Shown one piece after another: positions 11,957 to 16,360 of a stretch of 64,000 nt of DNA. The stretch's first letter is position 1, and the number at the start of each line of letters is the position of its first letter. This DNA is from Clostridia bacterium (lineage in GTDB: Bacteria > Bacillota > Clostridia > Christensenellales > Aristaeellaceae). Made by a program: the position numbers and the translations under genes. The stretch lies in contig JAFWQA010000061.1 of NCBI GenBank assembly GCA_017509255.1, positions 1-64,000 on the forward strand. The letters run 5' to 3'. The notes under the pieces were generated by a model. The model was not told the origin of the DNA, made no database searches, and saw nothing but the letters and a program-made list of their open reading frames with translations.

Positions 11957-12439
11957 TTACAGCTTCTTGATGGACAGCACCTTGTAGCGGATCATGCCCG
12001 CGGGCACGGTGATGCTCACGGTCTGGTTGCGCTTCGCGCCCAGCAGGCCCGCTCCGATGGGACTCTCGTTGGAGATCTTGTCCTCATAGGGATCGGCTTC
12101 GTTCGCTCCGACGATGGCATACTCGTAGGTCTCACCATCGTCCAAATCCTTTACCTTCACAACGGTGCCGATGGAAACGCGGTCAGTGGTGATCTCGTCA
12201 TCCGCCACGACGGTCGCTGTGCGGATGGTCGCCTGAATGCGGGTGATCTCAGCTTCCACCTTGGCCTGCTCCTTCTTGGCCTCATCATACTCGGCGTTTT
12301 CACTCAGGTCACCGAAGCCGCGGGCCACGGCGATCTGTTCGCTGATCTCGTTCCGACGGACGGAAATCAGGTAGTCCAGCTGCTCTTCCAGCTTTTTCAG
12401 GCCACTTTCTGTCAGAATCGTTCCTTTTTCGTCAGCCAT
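11957..12439 (-). CDS. greA: Transcription elongation factor GreA
   Basis: 160 residues from ATG 12439, with AAAGGAG upstream. The first 75 residues form the paired-helix coiled coil that enters the RNA polymerase secondary channel (LTESGLKKLEEQLDYL, then GDLSENAEYDEAKKEQ with the acidic tip). The C-terminal globular domain ends in SITVPAGMIRYKVLSIKKL. It rescues backtracked polymerase by stimulating transcript cleavage. It has its own consensus promoter directly after metI and is followed by lysS. Confidence 0.96.
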   Translation of the reverse strand: MADEKGTILTESGLKKLEEQLDYLISVRRNEISEQIAVARGFGDLSENAEYDEAKKEQAKVEAEITRIQATIRTATVVADDEITTDRVSIGTVVKVKDLDDGETYEYAIVGANEADPYEDKISNESPIGAGLLGAKRNQTVSITVPAGMIRYKVLSIKKL

Positions 12440-12466
12440 GGGATTCAGGCTCCTTTCATAATCAAG

Positions 12467-12501
12467 GCGCACCCCGCCGCTTTTCGCTGCGCAGGGTGCG
12501 C
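12467..12501 (-). other. Hairpin in the greA 5' leader
   Basis: GCGCACCC (12467-12474) is complementary to GGGTGCGC (12494-12501), with further partial pairing inside. It lies between the promoter and the ribosome site of greA. No T run follows. Confidence 0.5.
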
Positions 12502-12527
12502 GCCCGTTGTTTCCAATGTTCTTTGGA

Positions 12528-12556
12528 ATTATACCCGGTTTATGTCCGGTTGTCAA
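12528..12556 (-). promoter_or_regulatory. Full-consensus promoter of greA-lysS
   Basis: Minus strand: TTGACA (12551-12556), 17-base spacer, TATAAT (12528-12533), a perfect match to the housekeeping consensus. It begins four bases beyond the metI stop codon. Confidence 0.9.
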
Positions 12557-12560
12557 CGAG

Positions 12561-13277
12561 CTATTTGTTTTTCAGGCGTTTATCGGCTTTCCTGGCCAGC
12601 CAGGTGCCGAAGGTCTGCAGCACCTGCACCAGGATCACCAGGATCACCAGCGCGGAGAGCAGTACCGCGTGGTTGGAACGCTGCTGCCCTTGCGCGATGG
12701 CCAGGTTTCCCAGCCCGCCGCCGCCGACCGCACCGGACATGGCCGTATAGCCCAGGATCGTGGTGATCGCGGTGGTAAAGGCCGTGATCAGGCTCGGCAC
12801 GCATTCCGGCAGCATCACGTGGAAAACAGTCTGCCAGGTATTCGCGCCGGAAGACTGCGCCATCTCGATGATGTTGGGATTCAGCTCCCTCAACGATCCT
12901 TCCACCAGTCTCGCCACAAAGGGAAACGCCGCAATCACCAGCGGCACGATCACGCCGGCGTCGCCGACTGCGGAGCCCAGCAGCATGCGCGTAAAGGGCA
13001 TCAGCAGCACGATCAGGATAATGAAAGGCGCGGAGCGCAGCAGGTTGATGATCCAGTTGAGAACGCTCATCAGCCAGCGGGGCAGCGGCCGGATCCCCTT
13101 GGCGTCACCCGTCACGAGAAGGATCCCCAGCGGAAGGCCGATCAGGATGGCCAGCAGAGTGGAAACCAGAGTGATATACAGTGTGGAAAGCGTGGCGTTG
13201 ACGAAATCGTCCTGTATGATCACCCAGGCGTCCGCCATTTTCTTTTCGTTAAAGTACCTGGCAAGATACTCGCTCAC
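12561..13277 (-). CDS. metI: Methionine-type ABC transporter permease
   Basis: 238 residues with five or more membrane spans. It has the MetI-family EAA loop (VEGSLRELNPNIIEMAQSSGANTWQTV) and the terminal pattern GYTAMSGAVGGGGLGNLA. It forms the membrane channel for D/L-methionine uptake together with MetN and MetQ. It overlaps metN by four bases (ATGA), so the two are translationally coupled. There is no terminator between it and the greA promoter. Confidence 0.93.
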   Translation of the reverse strand: MSEYLARYFNEKKMADAWVIIQDDFVNATLSTLYITLVSTLLAILIGLPLGILLVTGDAKGIRPLPRWLMSVLNWIINLLRSAPFIILIVLLMPFTRMLLGSAVGDAGVIVPLVIAAFPFVARLVEGSLRELNPNIIEMAQSSGANTWQTVFHVMLPECVPSLITAFTTAITTILGYTAMSGAVGGGGLGNLAIAQGQQRSNHAVLLSALVILVILVQVLQTFGTWLARKADKRLKNK

Positions 13278-14347
13278 CGCTCATCCGCCTCCTTTCCCTC
13301 CGCGGCATTGCCGCCGGCTTTCTCCGCCTGCTGCATCGGGTACTCCATTTCCACCTGGATGCTGACGTCTGGCGTCTGACTCAGGTACTGCACCGCGCGG
13401 GCCAGATCATCCGGCCCGCCCGGAATGTTCAGCAGCATCGTTCCGTACACCTTTCCGTTCAGCGTACGGGTCGTGGCGGACAGGATATTCGCCGCGATAT
13501 TGCAGTCGATCGCCATGGAGGCAAGCAGCGGCCTTGTGGCAGCACCGGCGCCCTGGAATACAAGGCGCACCATCTGGTGGTGGGCCGCGCCGAGGGAATC
13601 GATCCCCTCCGCCATGTCCGGATAGACCAGCCGCTTGGTCGCGGCAGCCTTCGGGTTGGAGAAGACGTCGCTCACGTCGCCTTCCTCCACCACCGTCCCG
13701 TTTTCCAGAATGGCTACGCGGTTGCAGATCTCCTGCACCACGCTCATCTGATGGGTGATGATGATCACTGTGATCCCCAGCTCCTCGTTGATGGAGCGGA
13801 TCAGGGACAGAATGTCATGGGTCGTTTTGGGATCCAGCGCGGAGGTCGCTTCGTCGCACAGCAGCACCTTGGGGTCGGTCGCCAGCGCCCGAGCGATGGC
13901 GATGCGCTGCTGCTGTCCGCCGGAAAGCTGCGCCGGATAGGCTTTTGCCTTGTCGGACATCCCGACGGTCTCCAGCAGCTCGGATGCCCGTTTCACCGCC
14001 TGGTCCTTTGGCATGTGGATCAGCCTCAGCGGCAGCATGATGTTCTGCAGGCAGTTGCGCTGCATCAGCAGATTGAAGCTCTGGAAGATCATCGTGATAT
14101 GATGCCGCATTTCCTGCATTTTCTTTTTGTCCAGCATACCCAGGTCCGCGCCGTCCAGCAGCACGGTCCCCTCCGTCGGCCGTTCCAGCATGTTGATGCA
14201 GCGCACCAGCGTGCTCTTTCCGGCGCCGCTCATGCCGATGATGCCGTAGATATCCCCGTCGCGGATGGTCAGGTTCACGTTCCTCAGCGCGTCCACCGTA
14301 CCCCCGGCGGTCACAAAGCTCTTGCTCAGGTTACAGATTTCGATCAT
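13274..14347 (-). CDS. metN: Methionine-type ABC transporter ATPase with NIL domain
   Basis: 357 residues from ATG 14347, preceded by GGAGG eight bases away. Walker A is [10 protein letters not shown], the signature is [15 protein letters not shown] and Walker B is [12 protein letters not shown]. The C-terminal 90 residues form a NIL (ACT-like) domain, which in MetN proteins binds methionine and inhibits transport when the cell is replete. It is coupled to metI and separated from metQ by a terminator-like hairpin. Confidence 0.95.
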
Positions 14348-14400
14348 GCGGAAACCTCCGGTCATAAATCGGGAGAATGTATGATGTCCGTAAAAACGCC

Positions 14401-14431
14401 AAAAGGCACCGGCCGCAAAACACGGCCGGTG
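14401..14431 (-). terminator. Intrinsic terminator between metQ and metN
   Basis: A perfect 9-bp GC-rich stem (14407-14415 with 14423-14431), a 7-base loop, then CCTTTT on the minus strand. I see no separate promoter before metN, so this probably lowers rather than stops transcription into metN-metI. Confidence 0.7.
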
Positions 14432-14452
14432 TCGAATGCATGCATTCGTCGC

Positions 14453-15307
14453 TTATTCAGCAGCAGGCAGCAGAACGTTCAGATCAGAGGACTGTCCGCC
14501 GTAGATCGCCATGGGCTCCACATGGACGGGGGCAACGATAGCGATGTGCGTGCCGTTCTCTGCATTGAAGTTTTCCTGATACGGAATGTGTGCGAAGTAG
14601 TTGGCATAGATGTCGCCGGCTTCAACGAAATCGTTGGGCGTCACATAGTCGGTCACGACCTTGATGTCCAGGGTGATCCCTTTCTCAGCCAGGGTTTCCG
14701 CGGCGATCTTCGCGATCAGCTCATGGGGAACGGGCGTCACGGCGATGCTGACGGTGGTGCCCTTCAGGGCTTCGTAGTCCACGGTAGCGTCAAAGCCGTC
14801 GGTGGGAGCTTCCACGGTGGCGACAACGGAGCCGTCCGGATACTCGGAAGCGATGAAGTCTACGATCTTCTGGGAAGTGAAGGCAGCGATCAGCGCCTTG
14901 GTCAGGTCGGTATCCTTGTTGTCTTCCTTTACGCACAGCACGTTGCTGTAGGGAGAATCCGCGCTCTCGATGGCCAGACCGTCCTTGGCGGGATTCAGGC
15001 CGTTGTCCAGCGCGTAGTTGTTGTTGATGATCGCGAAGTTGACGTCCGGCAGAACGTTCGGTACGTTCTCGGCTGCGACTTCATAGAACTCGATGTCAGC
15101 GACGGCGGAAACGATATTCTTCGTTGTCGCGGTGATGCCCGCGTCCTCGCTCAGGGTCAGCGCGCCGATGGACTGCAGCAGCAGCAGGGCACGGCCCTCA
15201 TTGGTGGGATCGTTCGGGATCGCGATGGTCAGGGTATCTGCCAGAGCGGCCGCCGACAGGGAAAGAACCAGCACAAGGGCCAGCAGAATCGCGAAAAGCT
15301 TCTTCAT
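14453..15307 (-). CDS. metQ: NlpA/MetQ-family methionine-binding protein, apparently circularly permuted
   Basis: 284 residues from ATG 15307 (GGAGG upstream). The signal peptide is residues 1-23 (ending SLSAAALA) and has no lipobox cysteine. The mature chain opens with TIAIPNDPTNEGRALLLLQ, which in normal MetQ lies in the middle. It continues through INNNYALDNGLNPAKDG and SPYSNVLCVKEDNKD, normally the C-terminal half. Only after about residue 160 comes the usual N-terminal half: SIAVTPVPHELIAKIAAE, DYVTPNDFVEAGDIYANYF, HIPYQENFNAENGTH and VHVEPMAIYG, ending the protein. The order of the two halves is therefore swapped relative to E. coli MetQ. It is the first gene of the metQ-metN-metI cluster, which supports a role in methionine uptake. 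Confidence 0.9.
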   Translation of the reverse strand: MKKLFAILLALVLVLSLSAAALADTLTIAIPNDPTNEGRALLLLQSIGALTLSEDAGITATTKNIVSAVADIEFYEVAAENVPNVLPDVNFAIINNNYALDNGLNPAKDGLAIESADSPYSNVLCVKEDNKDTDLTKALIAAFTSQKIVDFIASEYPDGSVVATVEAPTDGFDATVDYEALKGTTVSIAVTPVPHELIAKIAAETLAEKGITLDIKVVTDYVTPNDFVEAGDIYANYFAHIPYQENFNAENGTHIAIVAPVHVEPMAIYGGQSSDLNVLLPAAE

Positions 15308-15350
15308 CAATATTTCCTCCTTTTTTTGCGTCCTTTGAAAAGGATGACAC

Positions 15351-15380
15351 ATTATAACCACGAATACACCGAAAAATCAA
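15351..15380 (-). promoter_or_regulatory. Promoter of the metQNI cluster
   Basis: Minus strand: TTGATT (15375-15380), 18-base spacer, TATAAT (15351-15356). The leader to the ATG is only about 40 bases, too short for an S-box or T-box. Confidence 0.75.
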
Positions 15381-15459
15381 GCCTTTCCGGCAACTGAATA
15401 ATCAATGGCCGGTCATAGGTAAAATCTATTGCTTCTTGTGTTTTGAGTTCGTAAAATGA

Positions 15460-15624
15460 TCACTCTCCGCCCTTGAGCAGCTTCAGTGCGGTATTCAGCA
15501 GATCCCCGACAGTATCCGCCTTGCGCACAGCCATCTTCACGGCTTCCTTTTCCAGAAAATTCATCCTGTGGTCCTTGTTCTGCTCAAACCAGTCCATCAG
15601 CAGCTTCAGATCCTCCTGATCCAT
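15460..15624 (-). CDS. Small 54-residue protein, unknown
   Basis: A short complete frame from ATG 15624 to TGA at 15460, with AGGTG upstream and a 10-base gap to the metallophosphoesterase gene. It reads MDQEDLKLLMDWFEQNKDHR, then a helical stretch ending TALKLLKGGE. It is soluble, amphipathic and has no Cys. The gene position, ribosome site and codon use fit a real gene at the end of the rnz-uvrB operon. I do not recognise the family. Confidence 0.6.
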   Translation of the reverse strand: MDQEDLKLLMDWFEQNKDHRMNFLEKEAVKMAVRKADTVGDLLNTALKLLKGGE

Positions 15625-15634
15625 TTGGTTCACC

Positions 15635-16360
15635 TCACCGTTCCGTTTTATATACTTCCTGCTTTTTGCCCGGCTCCAGCCGGAGTATGATCAGCTCCAG
15701 CGGGTCGTTGATCCTCGGGACCCTTGACCCGTTCGTCATCCCCCGGGAAAGCAGCATTTTTCCGTCATCATACAGCCCGTGGGTCATCTTCGGAAAAAAG
15801 CCCTGTCCCGGCGCGAAAAGGCCCTGCCCGAAAAGCTGTACCTGCCCGCCGTGCGCGTGGCCGCACACCGTGAAGTCCACGTTCCTTCCGGATACATAGT
15901 CCCTGTACATTTCGGGATGATGGCACATCAGCAGCCGGAAGCCGTTCTCCCTCTCAAACCGGTCCAGAAACTCCGTATCCGCTTTGCCTTCCCATGCGCT
16001 GGAAAGGCCTCCCAGCTGGATCCCTTCAAACTCCGTGCTCTCATTGTCCAGAAGGGTTACGCGGCTTTCCTTTACCAGCCTCATCCATTCTTCCCGGAAC
16101 GCGAACCTCCGTTCATGGTTGCCCAGGGAGTAGAACACCGGAGCCGCCTCCGGCGCTTCCTTCAGGAAGCAGGCTGCCCGGTCGTACTTTTTCCGGTGCC
16201 GGTCCACCAGGTCCCCCGGCACCAGGATCGCGTCGCACTTCGCAAGATCCTCTGTCACGTCACTGTACGGCGCGTTGTGCAGGTCCGCGGCAACAGCCAG
16301 CTTCAGCGGTTTCCGGATCTTTTCCGATGTCACGGTATAATATACGCGTTTTCTCCTCAT
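15635..16360 (-). CDS. Calcineurin-like metallophosphoesterase (YkuE/YaeI type)
   Basis: 241 residues from ATG 16360, which overlaps the upstream stop as ATGA. The metal ligands of the family are visible: AVAADLHN (D-x-H), VPGDLVDR (GD), SLGNHER (GNH), LLMCHHPE and VCGHAHGGQ (GHxHGGQ). The GHxHGGQ ending is typical of the YkuE/YaeI branch, whose members act at or near the membrane on phosphodiester lipids or related compounds. It is co-transcribed with the membrane protein genes upstream. Confidence 0.88.
   Translation of the reverse strand: MRRKRVYYTVTSEKIRKPLKLAVAADLHNAPYSDVTEDLAKCDAILVPGDLVDRHRKKYDRAACFLKEAPEAAPVFYSLGNHERRFAFREEWMRLVKESRVTLLDNESTEFEGIQLGGLSSAWEGKADTEFLDRFERENGFRLLMCHHPEMYRDYVSGRNVDFTVCGHAHGGQVQLFGQGLFAPGQGFFPKMTHGLYDDGKMLLSRGMTNGSRVPRINDPLELIILRLEPGKKQEVYKTER

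Follow-up and report, generated by a model that had tools for sequence, protein, structure and literature searches.

The window analysed here, a 64,000-nucleotide stretch of DNA from a Clostridia bacterium, very probably carries a naturally circularly permuted MetQ, the predicted extracellular methionine-binding subunit of a MetQ-MetN-MetI ABC importer. Along the chain, the signal peptide is followed by IAIPNDPTNEGRALLLLQ onward, which is the second part in ordinary MetQ, and then by a linker; after the linker come VSIAVTPVPHELI, DYVTPND, NYFAHIPYQENF and VHVEPMAIYG, which form the first part in ordinary MetQ. The chain opens at the strand IAIPND and continues with what remains of the canonical C half, the conserved linker joins the old ends, and the canonical N half completes the chain. 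Such a permuted chain may be expected to fold as the usual two-lobed flytrap, which would close on methionine and pass it to MetNI.

The features of the locus are collected in Table 1. The start of metN was picked by eye within the open reading frame 13274-14365. The best NCBIfam models for metN and metI were TIGR02314 and NF008049, respectively, and both scores were under the cut-off of the model concerned. The promoter consensus scan of positions 12300-15800 gave four sites (1.4 expected). A methionine riboswitch reaching the gathering score was present neither in the window nor in any of 16 related loci.

Table 1. Features of the metQ-metN-metI locus in the window
Feature	Position	Strand	Basis or remark
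Permuted metQ, CP1 type	14453..15307	-	one open frame, 284 amino acids plus stop
Signal peptide, residues 1-23, ending A-L-A, without lipobox cysteine	15239..15307	-	read from the translation
B segment (canonical C half), residues 24-163	14819..15238	-	PF03180 profile 93-233
Ligand residues of the B segment: R39, N95, N122	within 14819..15238	-	invariant columns; roles from the accessible part of PMC6739813
Linker core, about residues 164-183, old C end to old N end	14759..14818	-	
A segment (canonical N half), residues 184-284	14456..14758	-	profile, PDB-sequence and E. coli MetQ matches
Ligand residues of the A segment: Y221, F238, H240, Y243	within 14456..14758	-	
metN, ABC ATPase with C-terminal NIL domain	13274..14347	-	PF00005 and PF09383 above cut-off
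metI, permease	12561..13277	-	PF00528 above cut-off
Promoter-like site TTGATT-18-TATAAT, upstream of metQ	15351..15380	-	consensus scan alone

Order of the halves in the window protein

The claim of the original prediction that the two halves are exchanged was borne out concordantly by Pfam, NCBIfam, 22 solved NlpA sequences and E. coli MetQ. PF03180 matched the protein in two stretches (E=8.3e-65, 218.7 bits against a cut-off of 27); the best of them aligned residues 21-162 with profile positions 93-233, so that the C half comes first, and in the genome search the stretch for profile positions 1-94 lay downstream of that for 93-233. In the phmmer search, 22 distinct NlpA sequences of known structure were hit, each in two separate stretches; in the three alignments that were printed, the halves were swapped. 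All significant PDB matches of the protein, as well as its Pfam match, were to NlpA. The NCBIfam MetQ/NlpA models also gave two-stretch matches, with the window protein, the only one scored in this way, staying under their cut-offs (149 bits against 374 and 141 bits against 229). This is a warning for annotation: the protein scores as MetQ yet sits under the NCBIfam cut-offs.

In the BLAST comparison with E. coli MetQ, residues 22-161 aligned with positions 127-268 (E=6e-31) and residues 186-284 with positions 33-132 (E=7e-11). After rotation to the canonical order, the protein matched E. coli MetQ collinearly (E=8e-45, 34% identity over 241 positions). Three canonical relatives used as controls each aligned to E. 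coli MetQ as one piece. The dot plot against E. coli MetQ, proposed earlier as a check, gave two off-centre sets of diagonals which exceeded the highest of 20 shuffles. With its half order reversed, the protein is therefore a permuted variant of the NlpA/MetQ family and not an ordinary member of it.

Two details of the original prediction had to be revised. The linker, claimed to have about 12 residues, measured 24-27 residues between the domain envelopes in 68 distinct proteins of the window's permuted type (CP1), and its positions G171, Y178 and G183 were invariant in 41 CP1 rows. The new ends had been placed at the lobe crossover, whereas the cut probably lies just past it, inside the second lobe. 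The segment EPMAIYGG, which we take to be the hinge strand, precedes the cut; both crossovers are therefore probably kept, and the new ends probably lie on the lobe holding the backbone of methionine.

Occurrence, predicted function and anchoring

Two iterated half-profiles were used, A for the canonical N half and B for the canonical C half, and each locus was classed by their order. The 236 loci classified in this way comprised 81 distinct permuted proteins and 132 distinct canonical ones. The same half order, which was to be sought in related genomes, was present in a single open frame in 42 of 100 relatives, the window's own genome included, when matches of at least 50% identity that covered the query wholly or for the most part were counted and the order was checked for the fetched loci. 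A second permuted protein (CP2), of about 30-35% identity, was found in 12 of the 100 relatives, again including the window's own genome, and one of these copies was cut by a contig end. The single permuted gene recognized originally thus stands, but it belongs to one of two permuted clades that apparently have separate origins. In the class sample of 391 genomes, CP1 was detected in 17 further genomes from nine other families and CP2 in one genome (G373). The phylum sample of 398 genomes added CP1 in one new genome of another class (G523; threshold 1e-30). The search of genome contigs gave at least 28 permuted loci (L005-L032) among the 80 loci listed, including loci labelled Lachnospiraceae and Limimonas and one from a Treponema metagenome-assembled genome, which may be misbinned. 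The relative, class, phylum and genome-contig sets partly overlap. Permuted MetQ occurs in many bacteria of the gut and the rumen.

That halves of two genes were wrongly joined during assembly might be suspected from the state of the window's genome, which is in 62 contigs and 74% complete. Dozens of other genomes have the same order in one frame, however, among them the single-contig genomes G023, G036 and G483, and the linker is conserved with invariant positions. A misassembly, named originally as a possible refutation, was rejected on account of this recurrence, partly on single-contig genomes, and has practically no probability left.

The window's own genome has its CP2 gene at L115:3610-4509 (G000:C2:10109-11008). 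The operon there includes a separate NIL-type metN, a metI and the gene for an M20-family peptidase. The peptidase hints at a ligand in N-acyl or peptide form.

As given in the accessible part of PMC6739813, methionine is contacted in Neisseria meningitidis MetQ (NmMetQ) by R156, N213 and N238 on one lobe and by Y81, F98, H100 and Y103 on the other. Through the alignment with E. coli MetQ these residues correspond to R39, N95 and N122 and to Y221, F238, H240 and Y243 of the window protein, respectively. The Neisseria numbering was converted to that of E. coli by motif, except for N238, whose equivalence to E. coli N229 is given in the same source (PMC6739813, accessible part). None of the seven residues varied among 41 CP1 rows selected from 68, nor did their equivalents among 12 CP2 rows. 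Pairwise comparison with eight relatives gave dN of 0.15-0.29, dS of 0.70-1.05 and dN/dS of 0.18-0.35. No second match at E 0.001 was obtained in 29 of the 42 CP1-carrying relatives. According to PF03180, the permuted gene was the sole NlpA-family gene in 27 of 30 selected genomes, mostly ones with a single earlier match; the exceptions were G018 and G032, with an extra canonical copy, and G226, with an extra weak match. Several relatives outside these 30 hold CP2 or canonical genes alongside CP1. The invariant ligand residues, the purifying selection, the conserved operon and the frequent sole copy make the prediction that the permuted protein still acts as a methionine-binding protein well supported, and the window protein most likely serves MetNI as its working binding subunit.

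Within the NlpA family there are proteins for other ligands, an example being a Gly-Met binder. The window protein could accordingly be a decayed or repurposed form without a role in methionine uptake, for instance a relative used in sensing or one that binds a different ligand, and its missing lipobox would fit this. The invariance of all seven ligand residues, the purifying selection, the adjoining metN with its NIL domain and the frequent status of sole family member speak against it, and we regard such a change of role as very unlikely compared with the predicted methionine-binding function.

No lipobox pattern was found in the window protein, and most CP1 proteins of its family likewise have none. 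CP1 loci of other families (L155-L171, L184; 18 in all) had the pattern without exception. Nearly all of the printed canonical MetQ proteins of the window's family are without it too (L142 has one), and the absence therefore looks like a trait of this family. Lgt-like and LspA genes were present in all 12 genomes checked, and Omp85 was found in none of 12 genomes of the lineage. Both NmMetQ and E. coli MetQ are reported, in the accessible part of PMC8416018, to need their lipid for association with MetNI; together with the missing lipobox and the absence of Omp85, this weighs against the predicted role of the window protein.

Seven genomes of the window's genus (G001, G002, G019, G023, G036, G038 and G044) each gave six to eight matches to PF01790 (Lgt) at E<=0.001, and four checked genomes of other families gave one or two each. 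CP1 MetQ in the genus is mostly without a lipobox. The permuted MetQ proteins of L107-L109, from the same genus, have a segment resembling a membrane span in place of the usual signal peptide.

Operon order and the origin of the permutation

The metN gene, encoding the ATPase with its NIL domain, and metI follow the window metQ on the same strand, and this arrangement is conserved. The original description of these neighbours as normal holds for the genes themselves but not for their order relative to metQ (Q-N-I), which is unusual. Loci 3800 bases or longer encoded 69 distinct permuted proteins; the order was Q-N-I for 58 of them and Q-N for 6. Three (L121, L124 and L125) had a further N-I pair upstream besides their own downstream one, and two had neither (L019, at a contig end, and L167). 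For the canonical genes the order was N-I-Q in 53 of 101 and I-Q in 11, 32 had neither gene within the stretch, and 5 had metN downstream; L024_AB, L133 and L134 have their own N-I downstream, and a permuted gene lies between L116_AB or L119_AB and the downstream metN. In the tree set, metN came after metQ in 24 of 24 CP1 and 7 of 7 CP2 loci. CP1 and CP2 alike show a rotated operon in addition to a rotated protein. With just two origins, this association of protein and operon rotation does not prove that they share a cause.

L199/L227 (genome G375), the canonical relative nearest to CP2, has the unusual order metN-metQ-metI.

As judged from the sequence trees, CP2 belongs to a second NlpA subfamily, in which a permutation of this kind apparently had an origin of its own. 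In the main tree of 84 chosen rows, with the halves put in canonical order, CP1 (24 rows, support 100/99) fell among canonical proteins of the TPxPH type and CP2 (7 rows, 100/100) among those of the GxNNxxW type, the two being separated by a branch supported at 100/97. The fast-evolving permuted proteins L153 and L154 were placed outside CP1 in a first quick tree. Both share the CP1 linker, and L154 lay inside CP1 in the 84-row tree, from which L153 is absent; their separate position was therefore put down to a long-branch effect.

The alternative is a single permutation in a common ancestor of CP1 and CP2, after which CP2 (or the A half of CP2) diverged or underwent recombination with a GxNNxxW-type canonical gene. 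The nearly identical cut sites speak for this. The new N end of both types is at the strand xIAxPND, in nearly the same loop, and the new C end follows an SxDxLK-like segment, CP1 being slightly shorter; the Q-N-I order is also common to both. When both halves were used jointly, however, forcing CP1 and CP2 into a single clade cost 75 log units (AU test, p-AU 0.0005). The A half alone rejected the clade as well (57 log units, p-AU 0.0048), and so did the separate gene metI (76 log units, p-AU 0.0002), in whose tree CP1 and CP2 belonged to different canonical groups, although L121_AB and L128, canonical proteins of the window's family assigned to the GxNNxxW type, switched sides.

The main point against two origins is the results for the B half. 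A single clade was not rejected by the B half alone (difference 0.79 log units, p-AU 0.49). In the B-only tree with every row included, the two subfamilies were intermingled (3 changes); after removal of six long-branch rows the two types separated (support 99*), with p-AU still at 0.49. The mean identity of the CP2 B half was 32.6% to its canonical kin versus 33.8% to CP1. The best canonical match of CP2 was nevertheless L199 in both halves (58% in A, 49% in B), above the identity of CP2 to CP1, which was at most 39% (A) and 40% (B). The linkers differ in length, with medians of 25 residues in CP1 and 43 in CP2 between the domain envelopes, and their sequences are unlike by eye. On balance a single permutation seems unlikely, and separate origins of CP1 and CP2 remain the preferred reading.

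The original prediction derived the gene from a tandem duplication followed by loss of the outer halves. Tandem canonical metQ genes do exist (Campylobacter loci, L210, L223 and L224) and provide the raw material for a B-A junction. Canonical and permuted copies also occur in tandem: L121, L124 and L125 have head-to-tail operons of the form N-I-Q(AB)-Q(BA)-N-I, with the open reading frames read for L125. Such an origin is plausible because tandem canonical genes were found at several loci and the AB-BA tandem in the same genus, but no half-way form, BAB or ABA, was present among the 236 classified loci, so that the duplication-and-loss step itself stays inferential.

Campylobacter loci with two or three canonical metQ-type genes in tandem include L033, L034, L035, L037, L038 and L042 and likewise L044, L048, L052, L053 and L074. 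Two long frames were considered as half-way forms and rejected. The frame of G459 is an ordinary gene; that of G184 is a canonical NlpA part behind a binding protein of another type. The latter (L238:1446-3185, minus strand; G184:C10) has 579 amino acids and joins what appears by eye to be a binding protein of the polar amino acid type to the canonical NlpA domain; it precedes a metN-like ATPase gene.

We tentatively raise a broader possibility, which we hold to be rather doubtful: the loop preceding the AVPND strand of NlpA proteins might be a recurrent site of natural permutation, used at least twice, and each time a single event would have opened the protein there and turned an N-I-Q operon into Q-N-I. 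An array of tandem operons would have been trimmed from the left inside metQ, with metN, metI and the first A half lost together, and the next unit would then start with B, followed by A and by N-I. Trimming at the left end within metQ would explain both rotations, that of the protein and that of the operon. If this were true, gene rotation and operon rotation would be two faces of one duplication-and-trimming process.

Comparison with known binding proteins

The window protein resembles MetQ/NlpA of E. coli and N. meningitidis (PF03180) in having both halves, the seven ligand residues and metN and metI as neighbours. Unlike these proteins, it has its halves in reversed order, its old ends joined by the conserved linker and its new ends at the loop before AVPND; its operon is Q-N-I instead of N-I-Q, and it is without a lipobox. 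The permuted family is good material for studying how a permutation happens and what it costs, with clear homology, many genomes and close canonical relatives at hand, and the probable second origin adds to this value. Since canonical and permuted relatives reach about 65-70% identity per half, direct comparison is feasible. Nearly the same cut was seemingly accepted twice in a subunit that must dock on a membrane partner. As this transporter subunit is often lipid-anchored, its permutation moves the anchor elsewhere on the protein.

The original prediction knew of no described permuted MetQ, and no description was found in the literature searched, most subscription papers being outside the scope of the search; none was among the literature matches listed or in the accessible parts of PMC12357092 and PMC12667903. 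For a permuted ABC binding protein in general there is a precedent of another fold class. Tp0684 (MglB-2) of Treponema pallidum is a circularly permuted glucose-binding protein, designated 'Type Ic / Cluster Bc', which was shown to bind its ligand and to change shape (PMC4990184, accessible part). The two proteins are alike as natural circular permutations of the binding subunit of an ABC importer. Tp0684 differs in belonging to another family with the Type I (sugar) fold class and in its cut site, which adds a fourth crossover. The permuted part of Tp0684 matches its canonical counterpart poorly (13%; PMC4990184, accessible part), whereas both halves of the window protein are clearly homologous to those of canonical MetQ.
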